64,000 nt of DNA, taken from contig NZ_CP053344.1 in the NCBI RefSeq assembly GCF_013113715.1, forward strand, positions 2,170,001 to 2,234,000, read 5' to 3'. Below, piece by piece: positions 22,425 to 63,308 of the stretch; positions within the stretch are counted from its first letter, which is position 1, and each line of letters opens with the position of its first letter. A program made the translations under genes and the position numbers. Below the pieces are notes generated by a model. That model was given only the letters and a program-made list of their open reading frames with translations. It was not told the DNA's origin and searched no databases. This DNA is from Herbiconiux sp. SALV-R1 (GTDB taxonomy: Bacteria; Actinomycetota; Actinomycetes; Actinomycetales; Microbacteriaceae).

Positions 22425-22478
22425 TTGGTCGCGCAAACTGCTCCCCAGCGCGCGTGAAGGAGCACTTTGCGCGACCAA
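22425..22478. repeat. Near-palindromic dispersed repeat, copy 1
   Basis: TTGGTCGCGCAAACTGCTCC (22425-22444) and its inverted partner (22459-22478) pair over 20 bp with a single internal mismatch, around a 14-nt loop. The arm here reads CAAAC on the left and CACTTTG on the right, so relative to the other two copies (22563-22614 and 63251-63308) this one is inverted. The rest of the 22279-22636 gap holds no gene that I can support. Confidence 0.75.
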
Positions 22479-22562
22479 GACAGCCCACCAGGGAGGGTGC
22501 TGGCCAGAGTCCACCTGCGCGAGGGCGGCGCGGGAGCGGGATGCTTGCAGGCCTCAGCACGA

Positions 22563-22614
22563 TGGTCGCGCAAAGTGCTCTCTGGTGTAAGTGGAGGAGC
22601 AGTTTGCGCGACTA
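22563..22614. repeat. Near-palindromic dispersed repeat, copy 2
   Basis: TGGTCGCGCAAAGTGCTC (22563-22580) pairs with GAGCAGTTTGCGCGACTA (22597-22614) around 16 nt, with the same internal mismatch position as copy 1 and one extra G-U. It ends 22 nt before the smc stop codon, so it may also end smc transcription coming from the right. Confidence 0.75.
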
Positions 22615-22636
22615 ATGGGCGCGCAATGGGGTGGGG

Positions 22637-25600
22637 TCAGGAGGCCGCGCGCTCGGGGGCGGGGCGGTCGGGCGCGGCGGGCCCGGGGGCGGGGGCGGGG
22701 CGGTCGGGCGCGGCGGGCTCGGGCGCGGCGCGGTCGGGCGCGGCGGGCTCGGGCGCGGCGCGGTCGGGCGCGGCGCGCTCGGCGGCGACGCGCTGGCCGA
22801 CGACGGCGGAGACGCCGTCTTGGCGCATGGAGACGCCGTAAAGGGCGTCGGCGATCTCCATGGTGCGCTTCTGGTGCGTGATGACGATGAGCTGGCTGGT
22901 GGCGCGCAGGTCTTCGAAGATGGTGAGGAGCCTGCCGAGGTTGGCGTCGTCGAGGGCGGCCTCCACCTCGTCCATGATGTAGAACGGGCTGGGGCGGGCC
23001 TTGAAGATCGCGATGAGCAGCGCGACAGCCGCGAGCGACCGCTCGCCGCCCGAGAGCAGCGACAGGCGCTCGATCTTCTTGCCGGCGGGCTTCACGCTCA
23101 CCTCGATGCCGGTGGCGAGGAGGTTGTCGGGGTCGGTCAGCGAGATCGAGCCGGTGCCCCCCGGGAAAAGCACGGGGAAGACCTTCGTGAAGGCCTCCTG
23201 GGTGTCGGCGAACGCGCTCTCGAAGATCGACTGCATGCGCTCGTCGATCTCGTCGATGATGGTAAGCAGGTCTTTGCGGGTGTTCGTGAGGTCGGTGAGC
23301 TGCTCGCTCAAGAAGCGGTGCCGCTGCTCGAGCGCGTCGAACTCCTCGAGCGCGAGCGGGTTCACGCGCCCGAGCTCGGCGAGCTTGCGCTCGGCCTTCG
23401 CGAGCCGCTGCTGCTGCTCGGCCCGCACGAAGGGGTGCCCCTCGGGCTCGGCCGGCTCGACGTCGGCACCAGTCGAGCGCTCGTCGAGGCCCTCGCCATC
23501 GCCATCGATCGCCGCCGCCGCAACCACGTCGCTCGAGGCATCGCCGGCAACGGATGCGCGCGCCGAGCCCTCAGGCACGATCGCCCGGAACGCATCGTCG
23601 TCGTCGCTCTCCGCCGCGAGCCGATCGGCCTCCAGCTGCTCGGTCGCGGCGCGCACCGCCGCCTGACTGGTGTCGATGATGGCTACGGCGGAGTCGTCGG
23701 GGATGAGCTGATCGGGCCCGTACTCGGCGACGAGCACCTCCTCGACGAGTCCGAGCTCGCTGGCCGCCCGCTCGAGCAGGCCCGAGAGGTGCAGCTTCTT
23801 CTCGTAGATCTGCAGCTCGAGCCCGTGCACGTTCTCAGTGATGGCCTGCAGCCTCTCGCGCAGGGTCGCCTCCTCCCGCCGCAGGGCGAGGAGCTCCTCG
23901 TTCTGCTGCGCGCGCTCGGCCTCGCGCTGCGAGAGCTCGAGCCGCGCCGCAGCCACGGACCGGTCGACGGAATCGAGCACCGCGGGCAGCGCCTCGGCCA
24001 CGTCGGTCGCCGCCGCGATCTGGCGTCGACGGATGACGGCACGCCGCGCCGCCGCCTCGGCCGCCGCCCGATCGGCCTCGAGCTGCTTCTCGAGGGCCGC
24101 CGTTCTCGCCTGCTCGGCGCGCACGCGCTCCCGGGCGGTCTCGACACCGAGCCGCGCCTCGACCTCCCGCTCACGCGCGATCTCAAGCTCGGCGAGCAGC
24201 CCCTCCCGGGCGCTGGCGTCGAGGATCGGGCGGGGACGCGCCCTCACCACGTCGAGCTCGGCCCTCGCCTTCTCGGCGGCCTGCTCCGCCTGCGCGACGT
24301 TCTCCTCGGCGAGCTTCGACGACTTTCCGAGCCGCTCGAGCTCGGCACCGGCGGCATCGAGCTGCGCCTTCAGCCGGCTCACCCTCTCGCTGCGGGCGGC
24401 GAGCTTCGCGTCGAACTCGCGCAGGGCGGCGAGCGCCTTCTGCGACTGCTCCTTCGCGACCTGCACGACACCGCGTTGCTCGGCGAGCTCGAACCGTGCC
24501 CGCTCGATGATGGAGTGCTCCTCGGCGAGCAGCACCGCTGCCGAGTCGCGCTCGGCGACGAGCTCGATGCGCGACCGCGTCGCCCCCGACCCTCCCCGGA
24601 GCACATACCTCGTGAGCACCTCTCCCGCCTTCGTCACCAGCGTGAGCGAGGCGAGCTGGGCCGGGGTGGCATCGCCGACGGCCGCCCCGGCGTTATCAGG
24701 AGCTCCGGCACCGCCGCGAACGGCGTCTTCGATCGCCGCCCACGCCGCACGCGCCGCCTCGAGATCGTCGGCCACGGCCACCGCGCCGAGCACGCCGAGC
24801 ACGCCGGCAGGTGCCGTCACGACATCGACGGCGGGAACCACCCCCGACAGTGCGTCACGACCCGACGCTCCACGGGCCCGCTCGAGGAGGTCAGGAGCGA
24901 TCTGCGTGCCATCCTCGCCGGCCGCGCCGGCCCCACTGTGGCGCCCCGCACCCGGCTCCGCGATCACGAGCTCGACCCGCCCCATGTCGCCCGCAGCCGC
25001 AGCCGACGCCGCGGCGACCGCCGCCCCCTGGTCGCTCGCCAGCACCGCGTCGGCGAGGCTGCCGAGCGCCGCCGCGACAGCGGCTTCGTAGCCGGGCGAC
25101 ACCTTCATGTGCTCCGCGACGAGACCCGCGATGCCCTCGAGCCGCGCGGCGACGAGCTCGGCCGAGCCGTCTTTCTGGTCGAGTGCCATGCCGAGGGCGC
25201 TCGTGCGAGCCGCCAGAGCGTCGCGCTCGCGCTCGTGCGTGTGCAGCTCCTCCCGGAGCCGCTCGATCTCGGCCTCGGCCTCGAACACCTGTGACTGGGC
25301 GAACTCGTAGCCCTCGTCGAGACCGGTGGCGTCGAGCTCCGACTCGGCCGACTCCTCCTCGGCCTCGGCGTAGTCGGCGGCCGCCCTCTCGCGTCGGGCC
25401 TCGGCAGCCTCGAGCGCGTTGCTCTGACGCAGCACTTCGCCGCGCACCGCGGCCAGCCGGGAGTTGGCCGACTCGAGCTGGCCCGTGAGCTTCGAGAGCT
25501 CGAGGTCGTGCTTCGAGACGAGCGAGCTCTGGTAGGCGATCTGCTCGTCGAGGGCGTCGAGGGCCGACCGCGCCGAGACGGTGGCCTGCTGCGCCGCCTC

Positions 25601-26653
25601 CCATCGCTCGTGCGACGCCGCCACCTCGCCCTGCAGGCGCTCGGCCTCGTCGCGCGAGTCGGCGACCATGCCGGGGCTCACGCTCGGAGACGCCTCGGGC
25701 ATCCCCTCCTCCCCACCGAGCAGCGCGAGCCGCTGGCTGGCCAGGTTGAAGAGGTTGCGCAACCGTTCCTGCACCGACTCGAGACCGAACGCGGTGCGCC
25801 GCGCGAGGTCGACGGCGTCGCCCACCTGCGCCTGCTCGAGGCGCCCGATGCGCAGCTGGTTCTGCTCGAGCCGCTCCTGCAGCACCATGCGCTCGGTGTG
25901 CCGCTCGTTCTCGCTGCGCGCCGCGGCGTCGAGGGCAGCACGCAGCCCCACCACCTCGTCGGCCAGCAGTCGTGCCTTGGCATCACGCACGATGGCGGCG
26001 ATCGACTGCGCCTGTTTGGCCACCTCGGCCTGCCGGCCCAGCGGCTTGAGCTGGCGCCTGATCTCACCGGCCAGGTCGCTCAACCGCGTGAGGTTGCCCT
26101 GCATGGCGTCGAGCTTGCGCACCGTCTTCTCTTTGCGGCGGCGGTGCTTCAAGATGCCGGCCGCCTCTTCGATGAAGCCGCGCCGACCTTCGGGGGTGGC
26201 GTGCAGCACGGCATCGAGCTGCCCCTGCCCCACGATGACGTGCATCTCGCGCCCGAGCCCGGAGTCGGAGAGCAGCTCCTGCACGTCGAGCAGACGGCAC
26301 CCCTCGCCGTTGATGGCGTACTCGCTGCCTCCGTTGCGGAACAGCGTGCGCGAGATGGTGACCTCGCTGTAGTCGATGGGCAGCGCACCGTCGGTGTTGT
26401 CGATGGTGAGGGTGACCTCGGCCCGGCCGAGCGGCCCCTTGGTCGAGGTGCCGGCGAAGATGACGTCTTCCATCTTCCCGCCGCGGAGCGTCTTGGCCCC
26501 CTGCTCCCCCATCACCCATGCCAGCGCGTCGACGACGTTCGACTTGCCCGAGCCGTTCGGGCCGACCACGCAGGTGACGCCCGTCTCGAAGGCGAAGGTG
26601 GTGGGGTTGGCGAAGCTCTTGAAGCCCTTGAGGGTGAGGCTCTTCAGATACAT
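22637..26653 (-). CDS. smc: Chromosome segregation protein SMC
   Basis: SMC forms the condensin-like ring that organises and segregates the chromosome with ScpA/ScpB. The start ATG 26653 (MYLKSLTLKGFKSFA) has GGTGGAG upstream; longer frames were rejected. Order: Walker A GPNGSGKSN with the Q-loop MGEQGAKTLRGGKMEDVIF, a coiled coil, the hinge (about residues 500-690), the return coil, signature LSLLSGGERSLAAVALL and Walker B FYIMDEVEAALDD (near 1225). At 1338 aa it is longer than the usual 1150-1200. About 60 acidic, Ala/Gly-rich residues (around 1010-1070, beginning AESDDDDAF) interrupt the coil just before LGRVNPLALEEF. The last 55 residues are Ala/Pro repeats (APEPAAPDR). Confidence 0.95.
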   Translation of the reverse strand: MYLKSLTLKGFKSFANPTTFAFETGVTCVVGPNGSGKSNVVDALAWVMGEQGAKTLRGGKMEDVIFAGTSTKGPLGRAEVTLTIDNTDGALPIDYSEVTISRTLFRNGGSEYAINGEGCRLLDVQELLSDSGLGREMHVIVGQGQLDAVLHATPEGRRGFIEEAAGILKHRRRKEKTVRKLDAMQGNLTRLSDLAGEIRRQLKPLGRQAEVAKQAQSIAAIVRDAKARLLADEVVGLRAALDAAARSENERHTERMVLQERLEQNQLRIGRLEQAQVGDAVDLARRTAFGLESVQERLRNLFNLASQRLALLGGEEGMPEASPSVSPGMVADSRDEAERLQGEVAASHERWEAAQQATVSARSALDALDEQIAYQSSLVSKHDLELSKLTGQLESANSRLAAVRGEVLRQSNALEAAEARRERAAADYAEAEEESAESELDATGLDEGYEFAQSQVFEAEAEIERLREELHTHERERDALAARTSALGMALDQKDGSAELVAARLEGIAGLVAEHMKVSPGYEAAVAAALGSLADAVLASDQGAAVAAASAAAAGDMGRVELVIAEPGAGRHSGAGAAGEDGTQIAPDLLERARGASGRDALSGVVPAVDVVTAPAGVLGVLGAVAVADDLEAARAAWAAIEDAVRGGAGAPDNAGAAVGDATPAQLASLTLVTKAGEVLTRYVLRGGSGATRSRIELVAERDSAAVLLAEEHSIIERARFELAEQRGVVQVAKEQSQKALAALREFDAKLAARSERVSRLKAQLDAAGAELERLGKSSKLAEENVAQAEQAAEKARAELDVVRARPRPILDASAREGLLAELEIAREREVEARLGVETARERVRAEQARTAALEKQLEADRAAAEAAARRAVIRRRQIAAATDVAEALPAVLDSVDRSVAAARLELSQREAERAQQNEELLALRREEATLRERLQAITENVHGLELQIYEKKLHLSGLLERAASELGLVEEVLVAEYGPDQLIPDDSAVAIIDTSQAAVRAATEQLEADRLAAESDDDDAFRAIVPEGSARASVAGDASSDVVAAAAIDGDGEGLDERSTGADVEPAEPEGHPFVRAEQQQRLAKAERKLAELGRVNPLALEEFDALEQRHRFLSEQLTDLTNTRKDLLTIIDEIDERMQSIFESAFADTQEAFTKVFPVLFPGGTGSISLTDPDNLLATGIEVSVKPAGKKIERLSLLSGGERSLAAVALLIAIFKARPSPFYIMDEVEAALDDANLGRLLTIFEDLRATSQLIVITHQKRTMEIADALYGVSMRQDGVSAVVGQRVAAERAAPDRAAPEPAAPDRAAPEPAAPDRPAPAPGPAAPDRPAPERAAS
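22701..22780 (-). repeat. 30-bp tandem repeat at the smc 3' end
   Basis: Two identical 30-bp units (22701-22730 and 22731-22760) are followed by a partial third to about 22775. In the smc frame each unit encodes ten residues of the AAPEPAAPDR type. Such units can expand or contract in frame, changing tail length. Confidence 0.7.
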
Positions 26654-26797
26654 GCTCCACCCCTTTCGCTCCGGCCGACGGGCGGGACTGCCCGAGCGGT
26701 GAGCACTACGGTATCGAATCGCCCGCCCGATCACGGTCGGCGCGACGACACTGTTGATGGATCCGCCGCATACGCTGGTTGTGCAGAAAGGACTCCG

Positions 26798-28084
26798 ATG
26801 CCCCGCCAAGCCCTCGTCTCACCGGCAGCCGACCTCACCCGCGCCGAGCTCACCCGCTACGCGCGCCAGATCTCCCTCCCCCACATCGGGCTCGACGGGC
26901 AGCGCCGGCTGAAGAACTCCCGCGTCGTCGTGCTCGGTGCGGGTGGCCTCGGCTCACCGGTCCTCCAGTACCTCGCCGCCGCCGGCGTCGGCACGATCGG
27001 CATCGTCGACCACGACACCGTCGAGGTGTCCAACCTGCAGCGCCAGACCATCCACCCGGATGCTGCGGTCGGCTCCCGCAAGACCGCCTCCGCCGCGGCT
27101 GCGGTGCGCGCTCTCAACCCCCTCGTCGAGGTGATCGAGCACGACGTCGAGATCACCCCCGACACCGTGCTCGAGCTCGTGTCGGAGTACGACGTGGTGG
27201 TCGACGGCACCGACGCCTTCGAGGTGCAGTACGTCATCGACGCCGCCTGCGCCCTCGTCGGCAAGCCGATGGTGTGGGGCTCGGTGCTGCGCTTCGACGG
27301 CCAGGCCACCGTGTTCTGGGCGACGGCCGAGGGCGACGGCGCCCGCACCCTCGACGACCTCTACCCCGAGCAGGGCTCCGACCCCGCGGAGAGCTGCGCG
27401 GTCGCCGGTGTGCTCGGGCCGGTGTGCGCCGCGATCGGTGCGGTCATGGCGACCGAGACGCTCAAGCTGCTGGGCGGCTGGGGCGAGGTGCTGCTCGGCC
27501 GCCTGCTCGTTCACGACGCGCTCGACGCGAGCTGGCGGGAGGTGCCGTTCGGCAAGTCGGCGATCCGGCCCGGCACGAAGGGCGCGACCCGCGGCGCCGC
27601 CAACATCGGCGAGCCCTACGACGCGAAGGTGCAGGGCGTCGGGGCCTCCAGCCCCGCGACCCGCCTCTTCGAGCGGCAAGCGGGCAACACCGCCAAGCCG
27701 ACGACCACGACCACGACCACCACCGAGAGCGAATCTGCCCCGCCTGCCCCCGCATCCGTCTCCCCCTCCGAGCTCAAGGAGATGCTCGACGCCCGCGAGC
27801 GCGGCGATGCCGACTTCGTGCTCGTCGATGTGCGCGAGAGCTACGAGCACGAACTCGTCGCCATCGACGGGGCTCATCTCGTTCCGCTCGCGCACGTGCT
27901 GAGCGATGCGGCGCGCGAGGTGCTTCCGCCGCAGGAGAAGGTGGTGCTGTACTGCCACCACGACACCCGTTCGGCGCACGCCGCCCAGCTGCTGCAGCAG
28001 AACGGATGGGACGACGTCGTGTTCGTGCGCGGCGGCATCGACGCCTGGGTGCGCGAGATCGAGCCCGACAAGCCGCGCTACTGA
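26798..28084 (+). CDS. moeZ: MoeZ-type adenylyltransferase/sulfurtransferase (MoeB-rhodanese)
   Basis: The product adenylates the C-terminus of MoaD-like sulfur carriers and, through its rhodanese domain, supplies the sulfur for molybdopterin. The 428-aa protein has an E1/ThiF domain (residues 18-255): YARQISLPHIGLDGQRRL, nucleotide motif VVLGAGGLGSPVLQYL, DHDTVEVSNLQRQTIH and SCAVAGVLGPVCAAIGAVMATE. A Thr-rich linker (eight Thr in a row near 300) leads to a rhodanese domain (about 320-428) with DVRESYEHE and the catalytic Cys in VLYCHHDTRSAHA. The two CxxC zinc pairs of E. coli MoeB are absent, as in other actinobacterial MoeZ. AAAGGA lies 7 nt before the ATG. Confidence 0.9.
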   Translation: MPRQALVSPAADLTRAELTRYARQISLPHIGLDGQRRLKNSRVVVLGAGGLGSPVLQYLAAAGVGTIGIVDHDTVEVSNLQRQTIHPDAAVGSRKTASAAAAVRALNPLVEVIEHDVEITPDTVLELVSEYDVVVDGTDAFEVQYVIDAACALVGKPMVWGSVLRFDGQATVFWATAEGDGARTLDDLYPEQGSDPAESCAVAGVLGPVCAAIGAVMATETLKLLGGWGEVLLGRLLVHDALDASWREVPFGKSAIRPGTKGATRGAANIGEPYDAKVQGVGASSPATRLFERQAGNTAKPTTTTTTTTESESAPPAPASVSPSELKEMLDARERGDADFVLVDVRESYEHELVAIDGAHLVPLAHVLSDAAREVLPPQEKVVLYCHHDTRSAHAAQLLQQNGWDDVVFVRGGIDAWVREIEPDKPRY

Positions 28085-28133
28085 GGGAGCGGCGACGAAG
28101 CGATGCGTCACGATGCGACGCGAAACCCCCGGC

Positions 28134-28388
28134 TCACCCCCCGGCGAACGGCGGCAGCACGTCGACCGTGTCGCCGTCGGCCAGCACCGTCGAGAGCTCC
28201 TTCGTCGCCCGCGTGTTGTGCAGAAAACTGCATCGCCCGAGCACCGTCGCCGTCGTCGTGGCGTCGGCCGACCCGGCCGCGAGCTCGTCGAGCACCGACG
28301 CGATGGTGCGTCCGGCCGCGTCGAGCTGCTCCGACGGTCGGCCGAGGGCTGCCTTGGCCGCCGCGAAATAGGTGAAGGTGACGCTCAT
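28134..28388 (-). CDS. moaD: MoaD, molybdopterin synthase small subunit
   Basis: MoaD carries the thiocarboxylate sulfur used to build the dithiolene of molybdopterin. The 84-aa product has the ubiquitin-like fold pattern: VTFTYFAAAKAALGRPSEQLDAAG at the start, ELSTVLADGDTVDVLPPFAGG at the end. The C-terminal Gly-Gly required for adenylation by MoeZ is intact. The ATG (28388) overlaps the moaA stop by one base (TGATG). It is convergent with moeZ, its partner E1, with a 49-nt gap. Confidence 0.93.
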   Translation of the reverse strand: MSVTFTYFAAAKAALGRPSEQLDAAGRTIASVLDELAAGSADATTTATVLGRCSFLHNTRATKELSTVLADGDTVDVLPPFAGG

Positions 28389-29497
28389 CAGCCGCCGATC
28401 GCGCTCATGGGGCGCTCGGGCTGGGTGAAGCCGAGCTCGTTCATGCGGTGCCCGGCGGGCTTGGCCCACATCGCACCGCGCCAGAGGTCGGCGACCTCGG
28501 CGTCGCCCGCTCCCGCCCGCATCGGGCCGAGCAGGTCGATCTCCTCGTGCGAGAACAGGCAGCTGCGCACGGCACCCTCCGCGGTGAGCCTGGTGCGGCG
28601 GCAGTCGGAGCAGAACGGCTCGGTGACCGAGGCGATCACGCCGACGAGTCCGAGCATCCGCTCGTCTCCGTGCTCGCGCACCTCGAACAGCTCGGCGGGG
28701 GCACCGTCGCGCGGCGCGGAGTCGGGCGTGAGCGTGTAGCGCTCGGCGAGCCGCTCGCGGATGCCCTCGGCCGTGATCATCGACTCCCGACTCCAGCCGT
28801 GGTCGGCGTCGAGCGGCATCTGTTCAATGAAGCGCAGCTGGTGCCCTCCGGCGAGCGCCCAGGCGAGCAGGTCGATGGCCTGGTCGTCGTTGATGCCGGG
28901 CATGAGCACGGCGTTGATCTTCGTGCGGGTGAGACCGGATGCGCGCACCGCGTCGATGCCCGCCAGCACCCGATCGAGGAAGGGTCGCCTGGTGATCGCG
29001 GCGAAGGTGTCGGGGTGGATCGAGTCGAGCGACACGTTCACCCGGTCGAGCCCCGCCTCCGCGAGCGCCTGGGCGCGCGAGGCGAGGCCGATGGCGTTCG
29101 TGGTGAGCGAGATCTCGGGCCGCGGCTCCAGGGCGGCGACGGCGCGCACGATGTCGACGAGGTCGCGCCGCAGCAGCGGTTCACCCCCGGTGAAGCGGAT
29201 CTGCCGCACCCCGAACTCGGTGACGGCGATGCGCGCGAGCCGCGTGATCTCGTCGAGCGACAGCAGCGCCGGCGGCGGGAGGAACGGGAGCCCCTCGGCG
29301 GGCATGCAGTAGGTGCAGCGGAGGTTGCAGCGATCGGTGAGCGAGATGCGCAGATCGGTGGCCTCGCGACCGAAGCGGTCGAGCAGGGTCGGCACGGCGG
29401 GGCGCTCGGAGGGAAGCGACGCGACCCCTCCGTCGGCGCGGCCGGCGGGGCGCGGGTCGCCCGCGCGCATCCCCGGCATGCCCAGTGCGACACTCAT
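28388..29497 (-). CDS. moaA: GTP 3',8-cyclase MoaA (radical SAM)
   Basis: MoaA carries out the first committed step of molybdopterin synthesis, the radical SAM cyclisation of GTP that MoaC completes. From ATG 29497 the product is 369 aa. The radical SAM cluster motif is CNLRCTYC (near residue 55), followed by VRQIRFTGGEPLLRRDLVDIV and ISLTTNAIGLA. The second [4Fe-4S] site is formed by FCSDCRRTRLTAEGAVRSCLF, and the C-terminus ends in the conserved Gly-Gly (SAIGG). The first 30 or so residues are low-complexity, so a downstream start is possible. The gene is divergent from moeA. Confidence 0.95.
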   Translation of the reverse strand: MSVALGMPGMRAGDPRPAGRADGGVASLPSERPAVPTLLDRFGREATDLRISLTDRCNLRCTYCMPAEGLPFLPPPALLSLDEITRLARIAVTEFGVRQIRFTGGEPLLRRDLVDIVRAVAALEPRPEISLTTNAIGLASRAQALAEAGLDRVNVSLDSIHPDTFAAITRRPFLDRVLAGIDAVRASGLTRTKINAVLMPGINDDQAIDLLAWALAGGHQLRFIEQMPLDADHGWSRESMITAEGIRERLAERYTLTPDSAPRDGAPAELFEVREHGDERMLGLVGVIASVTEPFCSDCRRTRLTAEGAVRSCLFSHEEIDLLGPMRAGAGDAEVADLWRGAMWAKPAGHRMNELGFTQPERPMSAIGG

Positions 29498-29651
29498 TCC
29501 CTCAGCGTAACCCGGCATCGGGTGAGTGCTGTCAGGGAGAACGGATGCGCGGGGCGGCATGAGAGACGACGGCGTGGTCGGAATGAACGACGCGGTCTCT
29601 CGACGCAGACGCACGAGCCTCCCGCCGGGCGGCGTGGGGCAGGATGGAGAC

Positions 29652-30965: not shown

Positions 30966-31437
30966 CGGCGACGAGCTCACCCACCTCGCACCCGACGGCT
31001 CGGCCCGCATGGTCGACGTCTCGGAGAAGTCCGTCACGAAGCGGCAGGCGACGGCGCAGGCCGTGCTCACCACCACCCCCGAGGTGATGCGGCTGCTGGT
31101 GGCGGGCGAGCTGCCGAAGGGCGAGGCTCTGGCGGTGGCGCGGGTGGCCGGCATCCTGGGTGCGAAGCAGACCTCGTCGCTCGTGCCGCTGTGTCATCCG
31201 CTGCCGATCTCGTCGGCATCCGTCGACTTCGAACCCGCCGAATCGTCGGTGCGCATCGTCGCCACGGTGAAGACGACCGGCGTGACCGGGGTGGAGATGG
31301 AGGCGCTGACCGCCGCCTCGATCGCCGCGCTCACGGTCTACGACATGATCAAGGCGGTCGACCGCGCTGCGGTGATCGGCGAGGTGAAGGTGCTCGCCAA
31401 ATCGGGCGGGGCGAGCGGCGACTGGGAGCAGGCATGA
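30958..31437 (+). CDS. moaC: Cyclic pyranopterin monophosphate synthase MoaC
   Basis: MoaC rearranges the MoaA product to cyclic pyranopterin monophosphate. The 159-aa product has ARMVDVSEKSVTKRQATAQA at the N-terminus. The core AGILGAKQTSSLVPLCHPLPI contains the conserved Lys and His, and ATVKTTGVTGVEMEALTAASIAALTVYDMIKAVD is the family signature. Length is standard. The ATG lies inside the last codons of moeA, with GGAGGA upstream, and the stop overlaps the next start by 4 nt (ATGA). Confidence 0.96.
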   Translation: MADGDELTHLAPDGSARMVDVSEKSVTKRQATAQAVLTTTPEVMRLLVAGELPKGEALAVARVAGILGAKQTSSLVPLCHPLPISSASVDFEPAESSVRIVATVKTTGVTGVEMEALTAASIAALTVYDMIKAVDRAAVIGEVKVLAKSGGASGDWEQA

Positions 31438-50292: not shown

Positions 50293-50297
50293 CCACC

Positions 50298-56116: not shown

Positions 56117-56243
56117 ACCCCCTTGTAAACAGATCGTAAAATCAGGCGGCGGCCCCGCGCATCCGTTCTTCGGCGGTGAGGGCAGGCGCAAGACTTGAGG
56201 CGCGCACCACTCATGCGACCCGGTGCGCAGTGAGCAGGAGAGC

Positions 56244-57164
56244 ATGTCGATCGTCCTCGGACCGCACCAGTACGGCAAGGCGGAGAACCGCATCGTGAGG
56301 GTGTACCGCGACACCGCGCGGCATGAGATCCACGACGTGAACGTCTCGACCGCGCTGCGCGGAGCCTTCGACGCGGCGCACCTCGTGGGCGACCAGAGTG
56401 CTGTGCTGCCCACCGACACGCAGAAGCAGACCGCCTACTCCTACGCGAAGGAGAAGGGGCTCACCTCGATCGAGAGCTACGGGCTCGTGCTCGGCACCCA
56501 CTTCGTCGACGACGTCGAGCCGGTCTCGGGAGCCCGCATCGAGATCGAGGAGTACGCCTGGGAGCGCGCCGTCGTCGACGGCGTGGAGCACGACCACGCG
56601 TTCGTGCGCAAGGGCCAGGAGGTGCGCACCGCCGCCATCACGGTGGAGGGCAAGGGCGCCGAGCAGAAGACCTGGGTCATCGGCGGCTTCAAGGAGCTCG
56701 TGCTGCTGAAGACCACGGGGTCGGAGTTCAAGGACTTCCTCGAGAACTCCTACACGTTGCTGCAGCCGACGACCGACCGCATCATGGCGACCTCGCTGGT
56801 GGCCAAGTGGCGGTTCTTCGAGCCGGCCGAGGGGTGGGAGTCGATCGACTGGGAGGCCACCTACGCCGGCATCAAGCAGACGATGGTGTCGGTGTTCGCC
56901 TCGCTGCACTCGCTCGCCCTCCAGCAGACGCTGTACGAGATGGGCAAGGCCGTGCTCGAGGCCTACCCGTTCCTCGCCGAGATCAGGATGGCGGCGCCCA
57001 ACAAGCACCACTTCCTCTACGACCTCTCGCCCTTCGGCGTCGCCAACGACAACGAGGTGTTCAACGCCGACGACCGCCCCTACGGCCTCATCCAGGCCTC
57101 CGTGCTCCGCGACGACGCACCCCCCGCCGGCCCGGCCTGGGACATCGCCGGCGGCTTCGCGTAG
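56244..57164 (+). CDS. uox: Uricase (urate oxidase)
   Basis: Cofactor-free urate oxidase converts urate and oxygen to 5-hydroxyisourate and hydrogen peroxide. The 306-aa product has the twin T-fold pattern. KAENRIVRVYRDTARHEIHDVNVSTALRG and VLPTDTQKQTAYSYAKEKG supply the catalytic Lys and Thr-Asp. FKDFLENSYTLLQPTTDRIMATSL is the substrate-binding Phe/Arg region, followed by EIRMAAPNKHHFLYDL with the conserved Asn-Lys-His. The ATG (56244) has AGGAG upstream; a GTG seven codons earlier was rejected. A perfect hairpin follows the gene. Confidence 0.95.
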   Translation: MSIVLGPHQYGKAENRIVRVYRDTARHEIHDVNVSTALRGAFDAAHLVGDQSAVLPTDTQKQTAYSYAKEKGLTSIESYGLVLGTHFVDDVEPVSGARIEIEEYAWERAVVDGVEHDHAFVRKGQEVRTAAITVEGKGAEQKTWVIGGFKELVLLKTTGSEFKDFLENSYTLLQPTTDRIMATSLVAKWRFFEPAEGWESIDWEATYAGIKQTMVSVFASLHSLALQQTLYEMGKAVLEAYPFLAEIRMAAPNKHHFLYDLSPFGVANDNEVFNADDRPYGLIQASVLRDDAPPAGPAWDIAGGFA

Positions 57165-57181
57165 GCCGCGCCGTCGCTTTC

Positions 57182-57231
57182 TTGCGGACAAAGTCCGTCC
57201 GAAACCACATTCGGACGGACTTTGTCCGCAA
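57182..57231. terminator. Perfect 22-bp bidirectional terminator-like hairpin
   Basis: The arms at 57182-57203 and 57210-57231 are perfect inverted copies beginning TTGCGGACAAAGTCC, with a 6-nt loop. The hairpin lies between convergent uricase (stop at 57164) and hiuH (stop at 57254). A short A-run follows on the plus strand and T-runs flank both sides (CTTTCTT and AAAAAGG), so either strand can present a weak U-tract. Confidence 0.75.
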
Positions 57232-57253
57232 AAAGGTGGTCAGGGGCGGGGGG

Positions 57254-57604
57254 TCAGCTCCCCCGGTACGTCGAGTAGGCGAAGGGGCTCAGCAGGAGCG
57301 GCACGTGGTAGTGCGCGGCGGGGTCGGTGAGCTCGAACACGATCTGCACCTCGGGGTAGAACGCGCGGACCTCCTGCTCGTGGAAGTACACCTCGGTGTC
57401 GAAGCTGAGGCGGTAGCGCCCGGCGGGCAGCTCGGTGGGGCCGAGCGCGGTGGCGCGCCCGTCGGCGTCGGTCTCGGCCGACGCGATCATCACCCAGTTC
57501 CCGAGGTCGTCGTGCTCGAGCCGCACCGGCACCCCCGCCGCCGGCAACCCGATGCCCGAATCGAGCACGTGCGTCGTCACCTTGCTGCGGGCGTGGGCGT
57601 TCAT
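57254..57604 (-). CDS. hiuH: 5-hydroxyisourate hydrolase (transthyretin-like)
   Basis: HIUase converts the uricase product to OHCU. The 116-aa product has the three catalytic elements: THVLDSGIGLPAAGVPV (His), the Arg of VPVRLE, and the C-terminal tetrapeptide YRGS. YHVPLLLSPFAYSTYRGS is the family's closing signature. The ATG (57604) overlaps the uraD stop by 4 nt, so the next two steps after uricase are coupled on the opposite strand. Confidence 0.95.
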   Translation of the reverse strand: MNAHARSKVTTHVLDSGIGLPAAGVPVRLEHDDLGNWVMIASAETDADGRATALGPTELPAGRYRLSFDTEVYFHEQEVRAFYPEVQIVFELTDPAAHYHVPLLLSPFAYSTYRGS

Positions 57605-58152
57605 GCGTCTCCTTCGGCGAGGGGTGAGGCACCGGATGCTGCGGTCGCCCCGGTTCCGGATGCTGCGGTGGGCGGGTAGAGGGTAGCCAGCCGCAGCAGG
57701 GTGATGTCGTGAAGCTCCGACGCGACCGTAGCCGCCTCCGTGGCGTCGTCGAGCTGGAGCCGGCGGGTGAGTTCGGTGAGGATCTCGGCGCGTCCCCGCC
57801 CTGCCGCCCTGATGAGGAACACGCGGTCGAAGCGCTCCTCGTAGGCGGCGTTGCCGTCGGTGATCGCCTGGGCGAGGGTCGCATCCGAGGCCTCGGCCGA
57901 CGACTGCTCCGAGCGGCTGAAGCGCTGCGACTGCCCGTCGCCCTGCGCCCGCTCGCCGATGCGCGGGTGGTGGGCGAGCGCGGCGTCGACCTCGGCCGGG
58001 GTGAGCGTGCGGGCCACGGCGTCGGCGGTGGCGAGGAGCTCGTCGTGCGAGACGAAGGGCGCGGCCCCGGCGACCTCGTCGACGAAGCGATCGACCGCCA
58101 GGCACGACCTCAGCGCGTCGCGCAACTCCCCCGAATCCACCACGCGTGTCAT
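57601..58152 (-). CDS. uraD: OHCU decarboxylase
   Basis: The enzyme decarboxylates 2-oxo-4-hydroxy-4-carboxy-5-ureidoimidazoline to S-allantoin. The 183-aa all-alpha protein has the catalytic motif LAHHPRIGERAQG (His and Arg), then SAEASDATLAQAITDGNAAYEERFDRVFLIRAAGRG with the conserved Glu and Phe. The C-terminal 20 residues (ASGTGATAASGAS) are low-complexity. It leads a two-gene unit with hiuH and is divergent from mocA by 14 nt. Confidence 0.93.
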   Translation of the reverse strand: MTRVVDSGELRDALRSCLAVDRFVDEVAGAAPFVSHDELLATADAVARTLTPAEVDAALAHHPRIGERAQGDGQSQRFSRSEQSSAEASDATLAQAITDGNAAYEERFDRVFLIRAAGRGRAEILTELTRRLQLDDATEAATVASELHDITLLRLATLYPPTAASGTGATAASGASPLAEGDA

Positions 58153-58166
58153 GACTCGAGTTTACG

Positions 58167-58931
58167 ATGAGCACCATGCACCCCGATGCCACCGAGCCCA
58201 CCCGCGGCAGGGCGACAGGGGTGCTGCTCGCCGCCGGCGCGGGCACGCGCATGGGGCTGCCGAAAGCGCTCGTCACCGACCCCGAGACGGGTGAGCCGTG
58301 GCTGAGGCGCGGCATCCGCACGCTCGTCGAGGGCGGCTGCTCCGCGGTCGTCGTCGTGCTCGGGGCGTGCGCCGCCCAAGCGCGCGAGCTGCTCGCCGCG
58401 CGCGCGCTGCTCGCCTCCGAGGCGGGAGACCTGGCCACACGAGGCGCTCACGGGCGAACTATCCCGGGCAGCAGTTCCGAGGTGCCGATCACGGTCGTCG
58501 AAGCATCCGACTGGCACGCCGGCCTCTCCGCCTCGCTCCGAACCGGCCTCGACTCCGTCGACGCCTCCACCTCCGACGCCGCCCTCATCACCCTCGTCGA
58601 CCTCCCCCGCCTGACCGCCGCATCCGTCGCACGCCTGCTCGAGCCGCCCTCCCTGCGCACCGCCCTGCGCCAGGCGGTCTACGACGGCCGGCCCGGGCAT
58701 CCGGTGCTCGTCGGAACCGACCACCTCGCGAACCTCGCCGCCTCCCTCACCGGAGACCGCGGGGCGCGCCCGTACCTCCGCGCGCACGGCGTCGACGAGG
58801 TCGACTGCACCGACCTCGGCGGAGGCGACGACATCGACGAGCCCGTCGACGAGCCCGGCGTCGGACCCAGCGACGAGCCGGTCGACGTCCCCCTGCGAGC
58901 CGGCCGGGAATCGGGAACACCGCGCGAGTGA
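58167..58931 (+). CDS. mocA: MocA-like molybdenum cofactor cytidylyl/nucleotidyl-transferase
   Basis: The 254-aa product has the NTP-transferase motif GVLLAAGAGTRMGLPKALV (residues 18-36). A Rossmann-like body follows with DWHAGLSASLRTGLDSVD, LITLVDLPRLTAASV (metal-binding LVDLP) and YDGRPGHPVLVG. This is the MocA/MobA-like family that makes the cytosine dinucleotide (MCD) form of Moco used by some Mo hydroxylases. The last 35 residues are acidic Asp/Pro repeats, outside the fold. Presence within the purine genes fits service to the hydroxylase at 33460. ATG 58176 is an alternative start. Confidence 0.8.
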   Translation: MSTMHPDATEPTRGRATGVLLAAGAGTRMGLPKALVTDPETGEPWLRRGIRTLVEGGCSAVVVVLGACAAQARELLAARALLASEAGDLATRGAHGRTIPGSSSEVPITVVEASDWHAGLSASLRTGLDSVDASTSDAALITLVDLPRLTAASVARLLEPPSLRTALRQAVYDGRPGHPVLVGTDHLANLAASLTGDRGARPYLRAHGVDEVDCTDLGGGDDIDEPVDEPGVGPSDEPVDVPLRAGRESGTPRE

Positions 58932-58948
58932 CACGGGTTGGGCTCTGC

Positions 58949-59599
58949 ATGACCGCAACAGGACTCACCACCATCGGATTCATCGGCTCGGGCAACATCG
59001 GAGGCCAACTCGCGCGACTCGCCGTCGCCCACGGCTACTCGGTCGTGCTCAGCAACTCTCGCGGGCCCGAGACCCTCACCGACCTCGTGGCCGAACTCGG
59101 CCCCCAGGCCATCGCGGGTACGCCCGAGGAAGCGGCTGCGGCGGGCGACCTGGTCGTGGTGACTGTTCCGCTGAAGGCCTACGAGCAGGTGCCGGTCGCA
59201 CCGCTCGAGGGCAAGGTGGTCGTCGACACGAACAACTACTACTTCGAGCGCGACGGACGCATCCCGGTGCTCGACGCCGGTGAGGCGACCGTGTCGGGAC
59301 TGCTGCAGGCGCACCTGCCGGGCTCGAATGTCGTGAAGGCGTTCAACAACATCATGGCCGCCGATCTCACCACCACGGGGTCGGCCACCGGAACCCCCGA
59401 CCGCCGCGCGCTGCCCATCGCCGGCGACGACGCCACGGCGAAGCAGCTCGTGGCCACGCTGCTCGACGAGTTCGGCTTCGACGCGGTCGACGCCGGCACC
59501 CTCGACGAGAGCTGGCGCTTCGAGCGCGATCGCCCCGCCTACGTCATCCGCATGACCGCCACCGAGATCCCCGCCAAGCTCGCCGAGGCCGTGCGCTAG
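58949..59599 (+). CDS. NADPH-dependent F420 reductase-like oxidoreductase
   Basis: The 216-aa product opens with the Rossmann motif IGFIGSGNIGGQLARLAVAHGYSVVLSNSRG, in which SNSRG after strand 2 suits NADP binding. It continues VVVTVPLKAYEQVP and VVVDTNNYYFERDG, then NVVKAFNNIMAADL and LPIAGDD, as in F420:NADP oxidoreductases and related reductases. A substrate is not assigned; it starts 17 nt after mocA and is probably co-transcribed. A hairpin follows the gene. Confidence 0.82.
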   Translation: MTATGLTTIGFIGSGNIGGQLARLAVAHGYSVVLSNSRGPETLTDLVAELGPQAIAGTPEEAAAAGDLVVVTVPLKAYEQVPVAPLEGKVVVDTNNYYFERDGRIPVLDAGEATVSGLLQAHLPGSNVVKAFNNIMAADLTTTGSATGTPDRRALPIAGDDATAKQLVATLLDEFGFDAVDAGTLDESWRFERDRPAYVIRMTATEIPAKLAEAVR

Positions 59600-59610
59600 A
59601 ACCACGGATG

Positions 59611-59640
59611 CGGGTGCCCGGCGACGGGGCCAGGCACCCG
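59611..59640. terminator. Hairpin between convergent genes
   Basis: CGGGTGCC (59611-59618) and GGCACCCG (59633-59640) form a perfect 8-bp stem with a 14-nt loop. It begins 11 nt past the reductase stop and ends 13 nt before the rpiR stop, so it can serve both. Confidence 0.55.
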
Positions 59641-59653
59641 AACCCGGGAGGCG

Positions 59654-60529
59654 CTACTCCAACTCGCCGAAGGCGTCGTACAGCGTGTTGATGGCGGCGA
59701 TGCGCGTGCGGGCGTCGCGGGGCCGCGCGGCGAGCGCGCCCGAGGCGAGCACGTTGACGAGGCTCATCGCGCTCGCGTAGCTGTCGAGCGGGGTCACGCT
59801 GTCGATCGGGCACTCGAGCCACAGCTGCGCGAACTCGGCGTACCGCCTGGCCGACGCGTCTCCGATCAGCAGCACGGACACGCCGCGCGCCGCGATTCCC
59901 TGCACCAGCCGCGCGAAGCCCGCCGGCCGTCGGCGGAACCCGAAGACCACGGCGACGTCGCGCGCATCCCGGTCGGCGAACTCCTCGGCGATGGTCTGGC
60001 CGGGCTGGGGCGCGAGCAGCACGCCCGTGCGCGCCTGCGCCAGCTGCTCGCGCAGGTGCAGCGCCGGCGCGAAGCTGTTGCGCATGCCCACGACCACCAC
60101 GGAACGGCTGTTGACGAGCAGCGAGATCGCCTGCTCGAGTCGCTCCGGGCCGAGCGAGTCGAGGCAGCGCCGAAGGTTCTCCACCTCGCGCACCAGGTGG
60201 GCGCTGAGATCGGCCGACGCCCCGGGCGTCGCTCCCCCGACCGGCACCCCCGACGAGCGCAGCGACCGCGCGTGCTCCCGCACCTCCTGGGCGTTCTCGA
60301 AGCCGAGTCGCCGGAACAGCCGCGACACCGTGGCCTTCGACACCCCGCTGCGGTGGGCGAGTTCGGTGCCCGAGTAAATGGCGAGGTCGGTGAGATGGTC
60401 GAGGATGAAGTCGGCGGCGCGCTGCTCCTGCGGCGACAGCTCCCCGTAGCTCTTGTCGATGCGCTGCCCGATGGTGAGCGGGCGGTCCGCGACCTCGTCG
60501 GGCCGCGTCTGCACGCCGACGCGGGTCAC
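59654..60529 (-). CDS. RpiR-family transcriptional regulator
   Basis: The 291-aa product has the RpiR HTH_6 domain (YGELSPQEQRAADFILDHLTDLAIYSGTELAHRSGVSKATVSRLFRRLGF, residues 28-78). A SIS domain follows (about 120-270): VNSRSVVVVGMRNSFAPALHLREQL, DVAVVFGFRRRP and SVLLIGDA. SIS domains bind sugar phosphates or other small ligands. The GTG start overlaps the allC stop by 4 nt, so the regulator is the last gene of pucG-allC-rpiR and probably controls ureide use. A GAAACG palindrome at 63209-63222 upstream of pucG is a candidate target. Confidence 0.9.
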   Translation of the reverse strand: MTRVGVQTRPDEVADRPLTIGQRIDKSYGELSPQEQRAADFILDHLTDLAIYSGTELAHRSGVSKATVSRLFRRLGFENAQEVREHARSLRSSGVPVGGATPGASADLSAHLVREVENLRRCLDSLGPERLEQAISLLVNSRSVVVVGMRNSFAPALHLREQLAQARTGVLLAPQPGQTIAEEFADRDARDVAVVFGFRRRPAGFARLVQGIAARGVSVLLIGDASARRYAEFAQLWLECPIDSVTPLDSYASAMSLVNVLASGALAARPRDARTRIAAINTLYDAFGELE

Positions 60530-61875
60530 AACCCCTGCTCCGTCTTCGCGGTCTCCCGCACCGGCTCCGCCTGCTCGGTCTGCTCCGCCAGCGCCAGCAC
60601 CGCCCGCTCGAACGCGTCGATGGTCTTCGCTACGTCGTCTTCGGTCACCTTCTCCTCGGGGTTGTGACTGACGCCGCCCTCGCAGCGCACGAACAGCATC
60701 CCGATCTCGGCGATCTCGGCGACCGCCATCGCGTCGTGCCCCGCCTTCGAGAACAGCGACATCGGCCGCTTGTCGCCCGTCGACCTGATGCCCTCGGCGA
60801 TCACCCCGCGCAGCCGCGCGCTGCAGACGGCGGCCGGTGCCGAGTGGGTCTCCACGCTGTCCCAGCGCAGTCGACGCTGCCGGCAGATGTCGTCGAGCAG
60901 GCCCTGGATGACCGTCCAGATGCGATCGCGCTCCGAGTCGTACTCACCGCGCAGGTCAAGGCTGAACTCGACCTTGCCCGGGATGACGTTCACCGCATCC
61001 GGGAACACCTGCAGGTGCCCGACCGTGGCGATGAGCTGCGCCGAGCGGGCGAGGCGTTCGATGGCGATGATCGCATCCGCCGCTCCCGCGAGTGCGTCGC
61101 GGCGGCGCTCATAGGGCGTTCCCGAGTGGCCGGCCTTTCCGGTGACGGTGAGGATGAAGCGGCGGGCCCCCGCGATCGACGACACGATGCCGAGGGCCTT
61201 GTTCTCGTCTTCGAGGTACGGGCCCTGCTCGATGTGCGCCTCGAGGTACCCGATGAGCTCGTCGGGGCGGCGCGCGGCGTCGCCCACCTTCGCCGGGTCG
61301 AGACCCCAGGCGGTGAACGCATCGCGGAGCGACACCCCGTCTTCGCCGTGCAGCTCCCACCACGCCTCGTCCCAGGTGCCGGCGAGCGCGCGGCTGCCGA
61401 GCAGGGCCCGGCCGAAGCGTGTGCCCTCCTCGTCGGCGAAGGCGACGACCTCGAGGGCGAACGGCAGTTTCCGGCCGGAAGCCTTGATGCGCTCGACGAC
61501 GGCGATCGCACTCAGCACACCCAGGATGCCGTCGTACTTGCCCGCGGCCGGCACGGTGTCGAGGTGGCTGCCGAGCAGCAGTGCCGGGAGCCCGGGCACG
61601 GCGCCCTCGAGGCGCCCGCACTGGTTGCCGGCGGCGTCTTGCCAGGTGGTCATGCCGGCGGCCTGCATCCACTCGGCGGCGAGGGCGTTGACCTGGCGGT
61701 GCTCCTCCGAGAGGTAGACGCGCTCGATGAGCCCGTCGGGCATCGAGGAGTATCCGGCGAGCACCTCGCAGCGGCGGAGGAGTTCGGCCGCGGTCGTGGT
61801 CTCGGGCACCTCGCGGGTGCCGGCCGCGGTGGCGGAGGCTCCGCCGGCGGTGGCGGGGGTCTCGACCGGGGTCAT
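60526..61875 (-). CDS. allC: Allantoate amidohydrolase (M20 family)
   Basis: The enzyme converts allantoate to ureidoglycine, CO2 and ammonia. The 449-aa product shows the binuclear metal ligands of the Zn-dependent amidase branch of M20: LLLGSHLDTVPAAGKYDGILGVL (His and Asp), VVAFADEEGTRFGRALLGSRALAG (catalytic Glu pair) and YLEAHIEQGPYLEDENKALGIV (His). MSLFSKAGHDAMAVA supplies the final His. TGKAGHSGTPYERRRDAL is the dimer/lid region. The first 25 residues are Ala/Thr-rich. It is coupled to pucG (ATGA) upstream and rpiR downstream; related N-carbamoyl amidases are less likely in this context. Confidence 0.9.
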   Translation of the reverse strand: MTPVETPATAGGASATAAGTREVPETTTAAELLRRCEVLAGYSSMPDGLIERVYLSEEHRQVNALAAEWMQAAGMTTWQDAAGNQCGRLEGAVPGLPALLLGSHLDTVPAAGKYDGILGVLSAIAVVERIKASGRKLPFALEVVAFADEEGTRFGRALLGSRALAGTWDEAWWELHGEDGVSLRDAFTAWGLDPAKVGDAARRPDELIGYLEAHIEQGPYLEDENKALGIVSSIAGARRFILTVTGKAGHSGTPYERRRDALAGAADAIIAIERLARSAQLIATVGHLQVFPDAVNVIPGKVEFSLDLRGEYDSERDRIWTVIQGLLDDICRQRRLRWDSVETHSAPAAVCSARLRGVIAEGIRSTGDKRPMSLFSKAGHDAMAVAEIAEIGMLFVRCEGGVSHNPEEKVTEDDVAKTIDAFERAVLALAEQTEQAEPVRETAKTEQGL

Positions 61876-63203
61876 CGGGCGATCTCCTCGGCGGTGATGG
61901 GAGCGTCGTCGGTGAGGGTGCCTGCCGCATCCTCGCCTCCGCCACGCGCCGCATCCTCGTACACCTCGTAAGCTGCCCCCACGCCGCCCCCGCCCACGAC
62001 GTCGGCGCCCTGCCGGCGCAGCACCTGCTCGAGGGCGGCGAGGGTGGTGAGCACCGCATCCTTCCGGGCGTTGTACCCCATGGTGCCGATGCGCCACACC
62101 TTGCCGTGCAGCGGGCCGAACGAGGTGCCGATCTCGATGCCGAAGTCGTTCAGCAGCTCACCGCGCACCGCGTCGCCGTCGACACCGGCCGGGATCTTCA
62201 CCGCCACGACGTTGTTCATCTTCACCGCGAGGTCGCCGAAGGTCTCGAGCCCGAGCCCGCCCACGCCGGCGAGCATCGCCGCGCCGTGCAGCCGGTGCCG
62301 CTCGACCGCGTTCGCGAGCCCCTCCTCGACGAGAAGTCGCGCGCACTCGCGCGCCCCGTAGAGCATGGAGGTGGCCTCGGTGTGGTGGTTGAGGCGCTTC
62401 TCGCCCCAGTAGTCGAAGATCATGGCGAGATCGAAATAGTTCGATCGGATGCGCGCGGCACGCACCACGTCGCCTTCCGACGCGATCCCGGCCTCGATGC
62501 TCTTGCGGGAGTCGATGACCTCGACGGCCCGCGCCGAGAACGTGGCGGGCGCGGAGCCCGAGGGTCCGCCCAGGCATTTCTGGAGGCCGGCGGTGACGGC
62601 GTCGAGGCGGAGCGCATCCGTGTCGAAGTCGTTTCCGCCGAGGCTCGCGGTGACGTCGGTGTAGAACAGCACGCCGTGCTTCTCGCACAGCTCGCCGATG
62701 CCCTCGAGCGGCTGGGCGACGGTGGTGCTCGTGTCGCCGTGCACGACGGCGAGCAGCTTCGGCTTCGTCGAGGCGATCGCCTGCTCGATCTCGGCGAGCG
62801 TGAAGACGGTTCCCCACTCGCGCTCGATGACGTGCACCTCGGCGCCGGCACGCTCGGCGATCTCGCGCAGCAGGTGCCCGAAGCGCCCGAAGATCGGCAC
62901 CAGCACGCGATCGCCGGGCTCGACGAGCGACACGATCGCCGCCTCGATGCCCGCGCGCGAGGTGCCGTCGATGAGCAGCGTCTGCTCGTTCGCCGTGCGG
63001 AAGACCTCGCGGTACAACCCCATCGTCTCGTTCATGTACGCGGTCATGGCGGGGTCGTACTGCCCCACCAGCTGCGCCGACATGGCGCGCAGCACGCGCG
63101 GATCGGCGTTGATCGGCCCCGGCCCCATGAGGAGGCGGGTGGGCGGGTTCACGGGCTGAGCGACGATGACGACTCCTCGAAAATCCTGTTTCTCTCCCCC
63201 CAT
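61872..63203 (-). CDS. pucG: (S)-Ureidoglycine-glyoxylate aminotransferase
   Basis: A PLP enzyme that transfers the amino group of ureidoglycine to glyoxylate, giving glycine and oxalurate. The product, about 443 aa from ATG 63203, has PPTRLLMGPGPINADPRVLRAMSAQLVGQYDPAMTAYMNE at the N-terminus, diagnostic for this class V branch. LLIDGTSRAGIEA binds the cofactor phosphate, and the PLP Lys lies in VTAGLQKCLGGPSGSAP. The C-terminus after about residue 405 is Gly/Glu/Ala-rich. The start is uncertain: ATG 63203 has only AGG next to it, and a GTG 17 codons downstream (VNPPTRLLMG) is possible. It heads pucG-allC-rpiR. Confidence 0.9.
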   Translation of the reverse strand: MGGEKQDFRGVVIVAQPVNPPTRLLMGPGPINADPRVLRAMSAQLVGQYDPAMTAYMNETMGLYREVFRTANEQTLLIDGTSRAGIEAAIVSLVEPGDRVLVPIFGRFGHLLREIAERAGAEVHVIEREWGTVFTLAEIEQAIASTKPKLLAVVHGDTSTTVAQPLEGIGELCEKHGVLFYTDVTASLGGNDFDTDALRLDAVTAGLQKCLGGPSGSAPATFSARAVEVIDSRKSIEAGIASEGDVVRAARIRSNYFDLAMIFDYWGEKRLNHHTEATSMLYGARECARLLVEEGLANAVERHRLHGAAMLAGVGGLGLETFGDLAVKMNNVVAVKIPAGVDGDAVRGELLNDFGIEIGTSFGPLHGKVWRIGTMGYNARKDAVLTTLAALEQVLRRQGADVVGGGGVGAAYEVYEDAARGGGEDAAGTLTDDAPITAEEIAR

Positions 63204-63208
63204 CCTAC

Positions 63209-63222
63209 GAAACGAACGTTTC
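63209..63222 (-). promoter_or_regulatory. RpiR-type operator candidate upstream of pucG
   Basis: GAAACG-AA-CGTTTC is a perfect 6-2-6 palindrome 5 nt before the pucG ATG, with another GAAAC on the minus strand about 13 nt further upstream. RpiR-family regulators commonly bind sites built from GAAA/TTTC half-sites. Its position over the start would block transcription or argue for a start further downstream. Confidence 0.45.
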
Positions 63223-63250
63223 AGGAGTGTTTCGGATGCGCATCCGTTCT

Positions 63251-63308
63251 TTTTGGTCGCGCAAAGTGCTCTCAAAACGCTAGATGGGAGCAGTTTGCGC
63301 GACCAAAA
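63251..63308. repeat. Near-palindromic dispersed repeat, copy 3
   Basis: TTTTGGTCGCGCAAAGTGCT (63251-63270, arm continuing to 63271) pairs with its inverted partner ending GCGCGACCAAAA (63288-63308) over 21 bp, with one internal mismatch at the same place as in copies 1 and 2. The orientation equals copy 2. The 16-nt loop is unrelated to theirs. It begins 19 nt past the stop of the minus-strand amidase gene, where it could act as that gene's terminator. Confidence 0.75.

Follow-up and report, generated by a model that had tools for sequence, protein, structure and literature searches.

A dispersed 54-nt near-palindrome with inverted half-sites at near-fixed spacing in Herbiconiux sp. SALV-R1: a possible REPIN-like repeat without a RAYT

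A dispersed near-palindromic repeat, here called family A, was noticed in a 64,000-nt stretch of Herbiconiux sp. SALV-R1 DNA (contig NZ_CP053344.1, positions 2,170,001 to 2,234,000 of the forward strand), which as a whole is referred to as the window, and was found at 47 places genome-wide as a 54-nt element of the form TTRGTCGCGCAAANTGCTC-N16-mirror. Two 19-nt half-sites in inverted orientation make up the unit, lying exactly 16 bp apart in all 47 copies, with a spacer of fixed length and nearly free sequence. We give about even chances to the reading that family A is a non-autonomous dispersed palindrome, similar to repetitive extragenic palindromes (REPs) or to REP doublets forming hairpins (REPINs) but lacking a REP-associated tyrosine transposase (RAYT), which carries inverted half-sites at near-fixed spacing and is tolerated at gene 3′ ends. 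Sequence comparisons support dispersal, gain within a gene, turnover, a 3′-end preference, conserved half-sites, near-fixed spacing and lineage dialects. The question addressed is by what route palindromic repeats without a RAYT are dispersed, and what keeps their arms similar as the spacers drift; a study of CGTC REPs leaves this unsolved for those repeats (PMC3733652). Family A and a second family, B, provide a compact test case in one genome, with 47 and 44 places, species dialects, near-fixed spacing, sites that are empty in a close relative and a gain in frame within a gene.

The three window copies, which the initial annotation had reported as inverted arms around a loop, are real, and each consists of two inverted 16-nt arms GTCGCGCAAA[G/C]TGCTC at about the following coordinates:

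22425 to 22478, no strand assigned: family A copy 1, 54 nt, positions 14/41 C/C and unpaired, fold -34.1 kcal/mol, z -6.6
22562 to 22615, no strand assigned: family A copy 2, 54 nt, positions 14/41 G/G and unpaired, fold -31.8 kcal/mol, z -6.9
63253 to 63306, no strand assigned: family A copy 3, 54 nt, pairing extending to 63251-63308

Folded as RNA, the three copies reach z-scores of -6.5 to -8.8. Six exact arms are present in the window, and at up to three mismatches there are eight matches against 2.7 expected, a number reached in 1 of 100 shuffles. Genome-wide (G000 denotes the source genome, G014 its nearest relative and other G numbers further relatives compared), a search with the 16-nt arm that left the spacing free returned 34 exact arms and none for the reversed control, so family A is not a product of chance. 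All 34 fall inside family A elements with a 16-nt spacer, and none is solitary. The concern that only the three window copies might exist is thus removed by the 47 places, and the proposed dispersed, multi-copy REP-like family holds.

The number of places was obtained with a covariance model built from 25 copies, which gave 47 distinct 54-nt places with E ≤8e-5 on at least one strand among 129 rows with E ≤1. Rows spanning 41-43 nt (model positions 7-48 or 8-47) were counted as different palindromes, together with the remaining new places at which E was weaker than 8e-5. A scan of the window and 33 G000 stretches for spacers of 8-29 nt yielded 50 matches, comprising 47 with a 16-nt spacer and three set aside with spacers of 13 or 27 nt (1349955 and 3860182, with one poor arm, and 181265, which overlaps the copy at 181276); the scanned stretches had been picked from the covariance-model matches, which makes the second count of 47 dependent on the first. 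The spacer between the 16-nt arms is therefore exactly 16 nt in 47/47 G000 copies, instead of the 14-16 nt first reported. The copies form 33 clusters (22 single, 8 double and 3 triple, i.e. 11/33 with two or three copies). The ends of the element are symmetric (TTRG...CYAA), and by inspection its arms lack the perfect inner hairpin present in family B arms. C- and G-rich motifs are weakly enriched in the outer flanks, with a skew not above that in 62 copy-free convergent gaps, on which ground conserved outer flanks were rejected. An Rfam scan of the window at the gathering threshold returned one tRNA only and no RNA family at the family A element, so a known RNA family was rejected, as was a viral source after a single degenerate 48-nt pattern matched 0 contigs.

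The arms are better conserved than the loops, as originally proposed. Between separate clusters the arms are 0.83 identical and the loops 0.42 (better of two orientations), compared with 0.32 for shuffled loops; the loops, described at first as unrelated, are not entirely so: they lie slightly above shuffles in G000 and are 0.75 identical inside local clusters. This within-cluster likeness points to local duplication rather than to a doublet unit. The suggested head-to-head REP doublet (bacterial interspersed mosaic element, BIME) and the inversion of copy 1 relative to copies 2 and 3 both depend on a single degenerate base, the element being symmetric in all other respects, and copy orientation is consequently given no meaning here. 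At seven one-to-one orthologous sites of G000 and G014, a small sample, arms are 0.80 identical versus 0.76 between different sites of this set (0.78 when every cross-site pair is counted). The corresponding loop identities are 0.61 at orthologous sites and 0.39 between different ones; the flanking gene ends at orthologous sites are 77-96% identical. Since orthologous arms are barely closer than arms of other sites and orthologous loops are clearly closer, the arms seem to hover around a maintained consensus while the loops keep their own history.

A rival explanation, which we regard as possible but rather unlikely, holds that the copies are bidirectional transcript-end hairpins sharing ancestry (terminators without a U-tract, or mRNA 3′-end stabilisers), in which the RNA hairpin is selected and the sequence is incidental. 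The strong predicted folds of the window copies are in its favour, whereas pairing within the arms is not. Over all arm pairs in G000, the observed pairing was reached by 178/2000 re-dealt halves, i.e. it does not covary above shuffles, and the 25-copy test agrees. The single mid-stem mismatch that had been taken as conserved does exist in all three copies of the window; the family as a whole does not preserve it: position 14/41 is G-C in 17 copies, C-G in 2, A-U in 1, G-U in 4 and unpaired in 23 of 47, and a kept mismatch was rejected as a signal. The same letter stands at position 14 on both arms in 20/47 copies against 20.9 expected if the arms were independent, and in 16/33 against 15.9 when one copy per cluster is counted. 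Position 14 is degenerate, and the two arms vary there independently. Moreover, both sequence and spacing are conserved, although a transcript-end hairpin should need neither. As a separate observation, three clustered copies at L095:6443-6704 have near-identical loops, and in the third both arms read C instead of G at position 14, so that two paired bases have changed together within a cluster.

The arm consensus differs between species. In G013, 16 places (one row, L309, being a neighbouring copy picked up by the pattern) share the arm dialect CGGGTCGCGCAAASGGCCC. Identity there is 0.917 in the core arms but 0.444 in the central 10 nt versus 0.435 shuffled, i.e. at chance level with the spacer length held. 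The consensus also differs in G008 (7 places), G010 (7 places) and G012 (6 stretches); G001 (2 places) resembles the G013 dialect, and G003 and G004 have one place each. Among 199 genomes searched including G000, 31 had a match at E ≤0.001, namely G000, 14/15 genomes of the same genus, 15 of the same family and one of the same order.

These patterns would also be expected if the elements were double-stranded sites for a host protein, such as a nucleoid or chromosome-organising factor, that binds in dimeric form, with one inverted half-site for each subunit and a fixed distance between them, an explanation we consider unlikely. It would account for the 16-bp spacing in 47/47 copies, the lack of solitary exact arms, the independent variation of arms that each contain a degenerate letter, the chance-level centre of held length in G013, and a dialect common to the copies of one genome, as with a co-evolving site and protein. 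However, 7/22 orthologous regions are empty in G014, and a whole 54-nt element inside a gene is absent from relatives, which is unexpected from point mutation, so that copying would be needed anyway; no candidate protein was found, none having been searched for.

According to gene calls from a codon-usage caller made for this analysis (not an annotation), the copies are concentrated near the 3′ ends of genes, especially where two genes converge. Confinement to intergenic gaps applies almost wholly, with 45/47 copies intergenic where 9.5% of bases are intergenic. By setting, 30 copies lie in convergent gaps, 13 in co-directional gaps, 2 in divergent gaps and 2 inside genes, and the 33 occupied regions correspond to 31 gaps and 2 genes. 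Relative to intergenic length, 19 of the 31 occupied gaps are convergent (p 1e-5), 10 co-directional and only 2 divergent (few; p 1e-3). The bias towards convergent gaps is what transcript-end hairpins would predict, but none of the copies (0/47) is followed, on the plus or the minus strand, by a T-run (at least 5 T within the next 8 nt) such as follows the hairpin of an intrinsic terminator. The terminator scan had no match at copies 1 and 2, but since its loops are limited to 3-8 nt, a family A element could not be reported by it.

Comparison with G014 indicates both presence and absence at corresponding sites. Orthologous regions were recovered for 22 of the 33 occupied regions (11 had no recovered orthologue), of which 15 are occupied and 7 are empty, the latter comprising six gaps (five of 12-51 nt and one of 144) and a mobA-like gene. 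The five short empty gaps, with just 12-51 nt between genes, also count against a transcript-end role. Two of the 47 copies lie in frame inside genes, one yjeF-like (also occupied in G014) and one mobA-like. In the mobA-like gene the whole 54 nt falls within an in-frame stretch of 25 codons absent from G014, and in G002, G003, G004 and G008 the gene is also shorter there, by about 16-19 residues and less cleanly alignable; this copy is most simply read, by parsimony, as an insertion in the G000 lineage. The yjeF-like gene of G014 with its family A copy (L259) also contains a 27-codon in-frame duplication.

Under the favoured reading of a RAYT-less REPIN-like repeat, a DNA-binding enzyme (a recombinase or a transposase other than Y1) or another host protein may recognise the two half-sites as an inverted pair, and this protein would copy or mobilise the unit. 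Recognition of an inverted pair would explain the near-fixed spacing together with the independent variation of the arms and the lineage dialects. Insertions would survive mostly beyond stop codons, where they harm neither promoters nor reading frames, and the strong hairpin, which would form in RNA of both strands, could mark transcript ends in the two directions or stabilise the transcripts. The lack of a Y1 transposase match in G000 agrees with this reading. Convergent gaps may then swap palindrome families over time.

Several results weigh against this reading. No mobiliser was identified, and the elements were found through an arm model, which biases the set towards conserved arms. The spacing is not absolute outside G000: in G014 it is 16 nt in 23/29 scanned elements, the others having 14 (2), 15 (2), 17 (1) and 29 nt (1). 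At the orthologous site of copy 3, G014 has no element and the junction keeps TTGGTC, so this case is possibly a deletion. A copy of recent origin would be expected to have the spacer of its source, yet for the mobA copy the closest spacer scores 0.69 (null median 0.50, 95% 0.62), so no recent parent is visible; tracing the source of recent gains by spacer was given up for want of a close parent. Direct repeats of 3-9 nt abutting the 47 copies show no excess, i.e. no enriched target-site duplication, and target-site duplication was rejected. As regards traits of miniature inverted-repeat transposable elements, the direct-repeat excess is thus lacking in the 47 copies, and a matching DDE transposase was not searched for. 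Two further results favour some hairpin role: the whole structure including loop pairs covaries above shuffles (0.154 vs 0.125, 1/500), with a contribution from related cluster copies; and the loops are weakly self-complementary (3.38/8 pairs vs 2.79, 3/2000). In G013, position 14 is paired in 10/16 copies versus 7.1 expected, a slight excess. Together, the pairing results indicate half-site behaviour of the arms, each independent of the other, and a centre that weakly extends the hairpin.

The classical explanation, a REP or REPIN mobilised by a RAYT (Y1 transposase), is very improbable in our judgement. Family A shares the general anatomy and genomic habitat of REPs, being a multi-copy short palindrome that is mainly extragenic and downstream of genes, and it resembles REPINs in its two inverted conserved segments at a set distance around a variable spacer; a Y1 gene is also present in 1/16 genomes of the genus, G001. 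However, the suspected RAYT is missing where it would be required, as PF01797 gave 0 matches in G000 (5/14 search controls gave matches), no Y1 transposase flanked by repeats was found there, and a RAYT was therefore rejected as the mobiliser. No GTAG or CGTC tag was seen by eye in the 30-nt flanks of the 47 copies, and the Y1-bearing G001 is not richer in elements, with 20 matches versus at least 29 in G014 and at least 28 in G013, both Y1-less; scoring covered 29 candidates per genome, so large numbers are possibly lower bounds. The sole Y1 match found in the genus (L302; G001 contig 11, 24558-24878) adjoins the L292 gap, which holds palindromes in other species.

Inverted DNA-uptake sequences act as terminators, form pairs at gene 3′ ends and show lineage dialects; they also occur singly. 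Family A likewise forms pairs at gene 3′ ends with species dialects, but 0/34 exact arms are single, and a DNA-uptake sequence was rejected because no exact arm is solitary. Compared with the repeats described in the literature, family A is classed here as a palindromic repeat variant outside the REPIN, CGTC REP and Rickettsia element families. Like the REPINs of Pseudomonas it is mainly extragenic with a predicted hairpin, and unlike them it has no RAYT found in the genome, a shorter unit (54 nt), a 16-nt spacer, no REP tag and arms without a perfect inner hairpin (PMC3116915). CGTC REPs are short palindromes without a dedicated transposase, mostly downstream of genes with some intragenic, in which a stem of 8-9 bp encloses a loop of 4-5 nt and one end bears an unpaired CGTC tag, and for which five phyla are listed, Actinobacteria not among them (PMC3733652). 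Family A agrees with them in that no dedicated transposase was found and in lying downstream of genes with few intragenic copies, but differs in its 19-nt arm, 16-nt spacer and symmetric ends, so that the tag, stem and loop definitions all fail (PMC3733652). Rickettsia palindromic elements are about 150 bp long and nearly half lie in genes; in-frame presence in coding genes is shared with family A (the mobA-like and yjeF-like copies), whereas its 54-nt length and 2/47 genic copies are not (PMC10969869). No report of such repeats in Herbiconiux or Microbacteriaceae was found in the open-licence literature, judged by titles and abstract openings.

Other palindromes share the habitat of family A. 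A de novo palindrome search of 724 kb of G000 recovered several families, many at convergent ends, with assignment to families C-F made by eye. The family B member in the window is:

57179 to 57234, no strand assigned: family B palindrome (TTCTTGCGGACAAAGTCCGT...), 56 nt, with arms that are themselves near-palindromic (ACGGACAAAGTCCGT)

The family B pattern occurs at 44 places in G000 (this one and 43 others); the query fixed the spacer at 16, so the spacing of family B relies on the copies of the de novo list. Perfect 28-nt arms occur at 27/44 places, with 23 distinct spacers among those 27, a contrast that speaks for the favoured reading of family A; one spacer is common to five places, which suggests a recent burst of family B. 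The spacer is often of the form NNN-AAC-NNNN-GTT-NNN, and its self-pairing exceeds that of re-dealt halves for all 44 places (1/2000) and for the 40 unique spacers (0/2000), a covariation that would suit transcript-end hairpins but is not clear in the 27 perfect-arm places (169/2000).

The genes and the further palindrome next to the family A copies in the window are as follows:

20821 to 22278, plus strand: gnd, encoding 6-phosphogluconate dehydrogenase, the convergent gene to the left of copies 1 and 2
22326 to 22390, no strand assigned: family D palindrome (GACCCGTCGCAAAACGCCCC...), in the gnd-smc gap beside copies 1 and 2, fold -54.9 kcal/mol
22637 to 26653, minus strand: smc, encoding the chromosome segregation ATPase, the convergent gene to the right of copies 1 and 2
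61872 to 63203, minus strand: class-V aminotransferase, its called start 49 bp from copy 3
63328 to 63999, minus strand: amidase-like gene, copy 3 lying 21 bp past its 3′ end

Copies 1 and 2 thus sit between convergent gnd and smc, a gap whose content varies between species. G000 carries family D and two family A copies there, G014 family D and a degenerate family A copy, and G008, G010, G003 and G012 unrelated palindromes, while the gap is almost nil in H. gentiana (6 bp), G001, G009 and G013. The family D palindrome reads CGATCGACCCGTCGCAAAACGCCCC..., and it has relatives in the G014 gnd-smc gap and beside smc in H. moechotypicola. The convergent gap with the copy at 1,001,344 (L080:10027-10113, orthologues L283-L296) is similarly varied: G000 has family A; G008 and G003 carry family E, also present elsewhere in G000; G012 has a D-like palindrome; G015, G010 and G004 have other palindromes; G011 has an ordinary hairpin; in G009 the gap is longer and contains a terminator-like hairpin; G014, G006 and G005 have none; and in G001, G002, G007 and G013 the flanks are not joined by one short gap. 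From these comparisons, the palindrome family in a convergent gap appears to change in the course of time, and such gaps may be regarded as sites where palindrome families replace one another between species. That several species carry unrelated palindromes at these two gaps, some of them ordinary terminator-like hairpins, is also what selection for a transcript-end hairpin would produce.

A broader proposal, which we put forward only tentatively and hold to be improbable as it stands, is that a so-far undescribed Microbacteriaceae system homogenises dispersed palindromes in their two arms only and fixes the arm spacing. Without Y1, it would disperse half-sites or overwrite them, leaving a centre of 10-16 nt free. 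At least two unrelated families in one genome would use its 16-bp geometry, and families would swap places in convergent gaps between species.

Some minor observations concern the surroundings of the window copies. Near copy 3, the terminator scan found a separate small hairpin at 63233-63246, directly before the element, which is followed by TTCTTTTT and is terminator-like on the plus strand. The SMC protein has Herbiconiux species as its closest named relatives, at 79% identity, and the C-terminal end of smc (22637-22900) is a GC-rich repetitive extension; query positions 1653-1923, which contain this extension and copy 2, are uncovered by the G014 matches listed.

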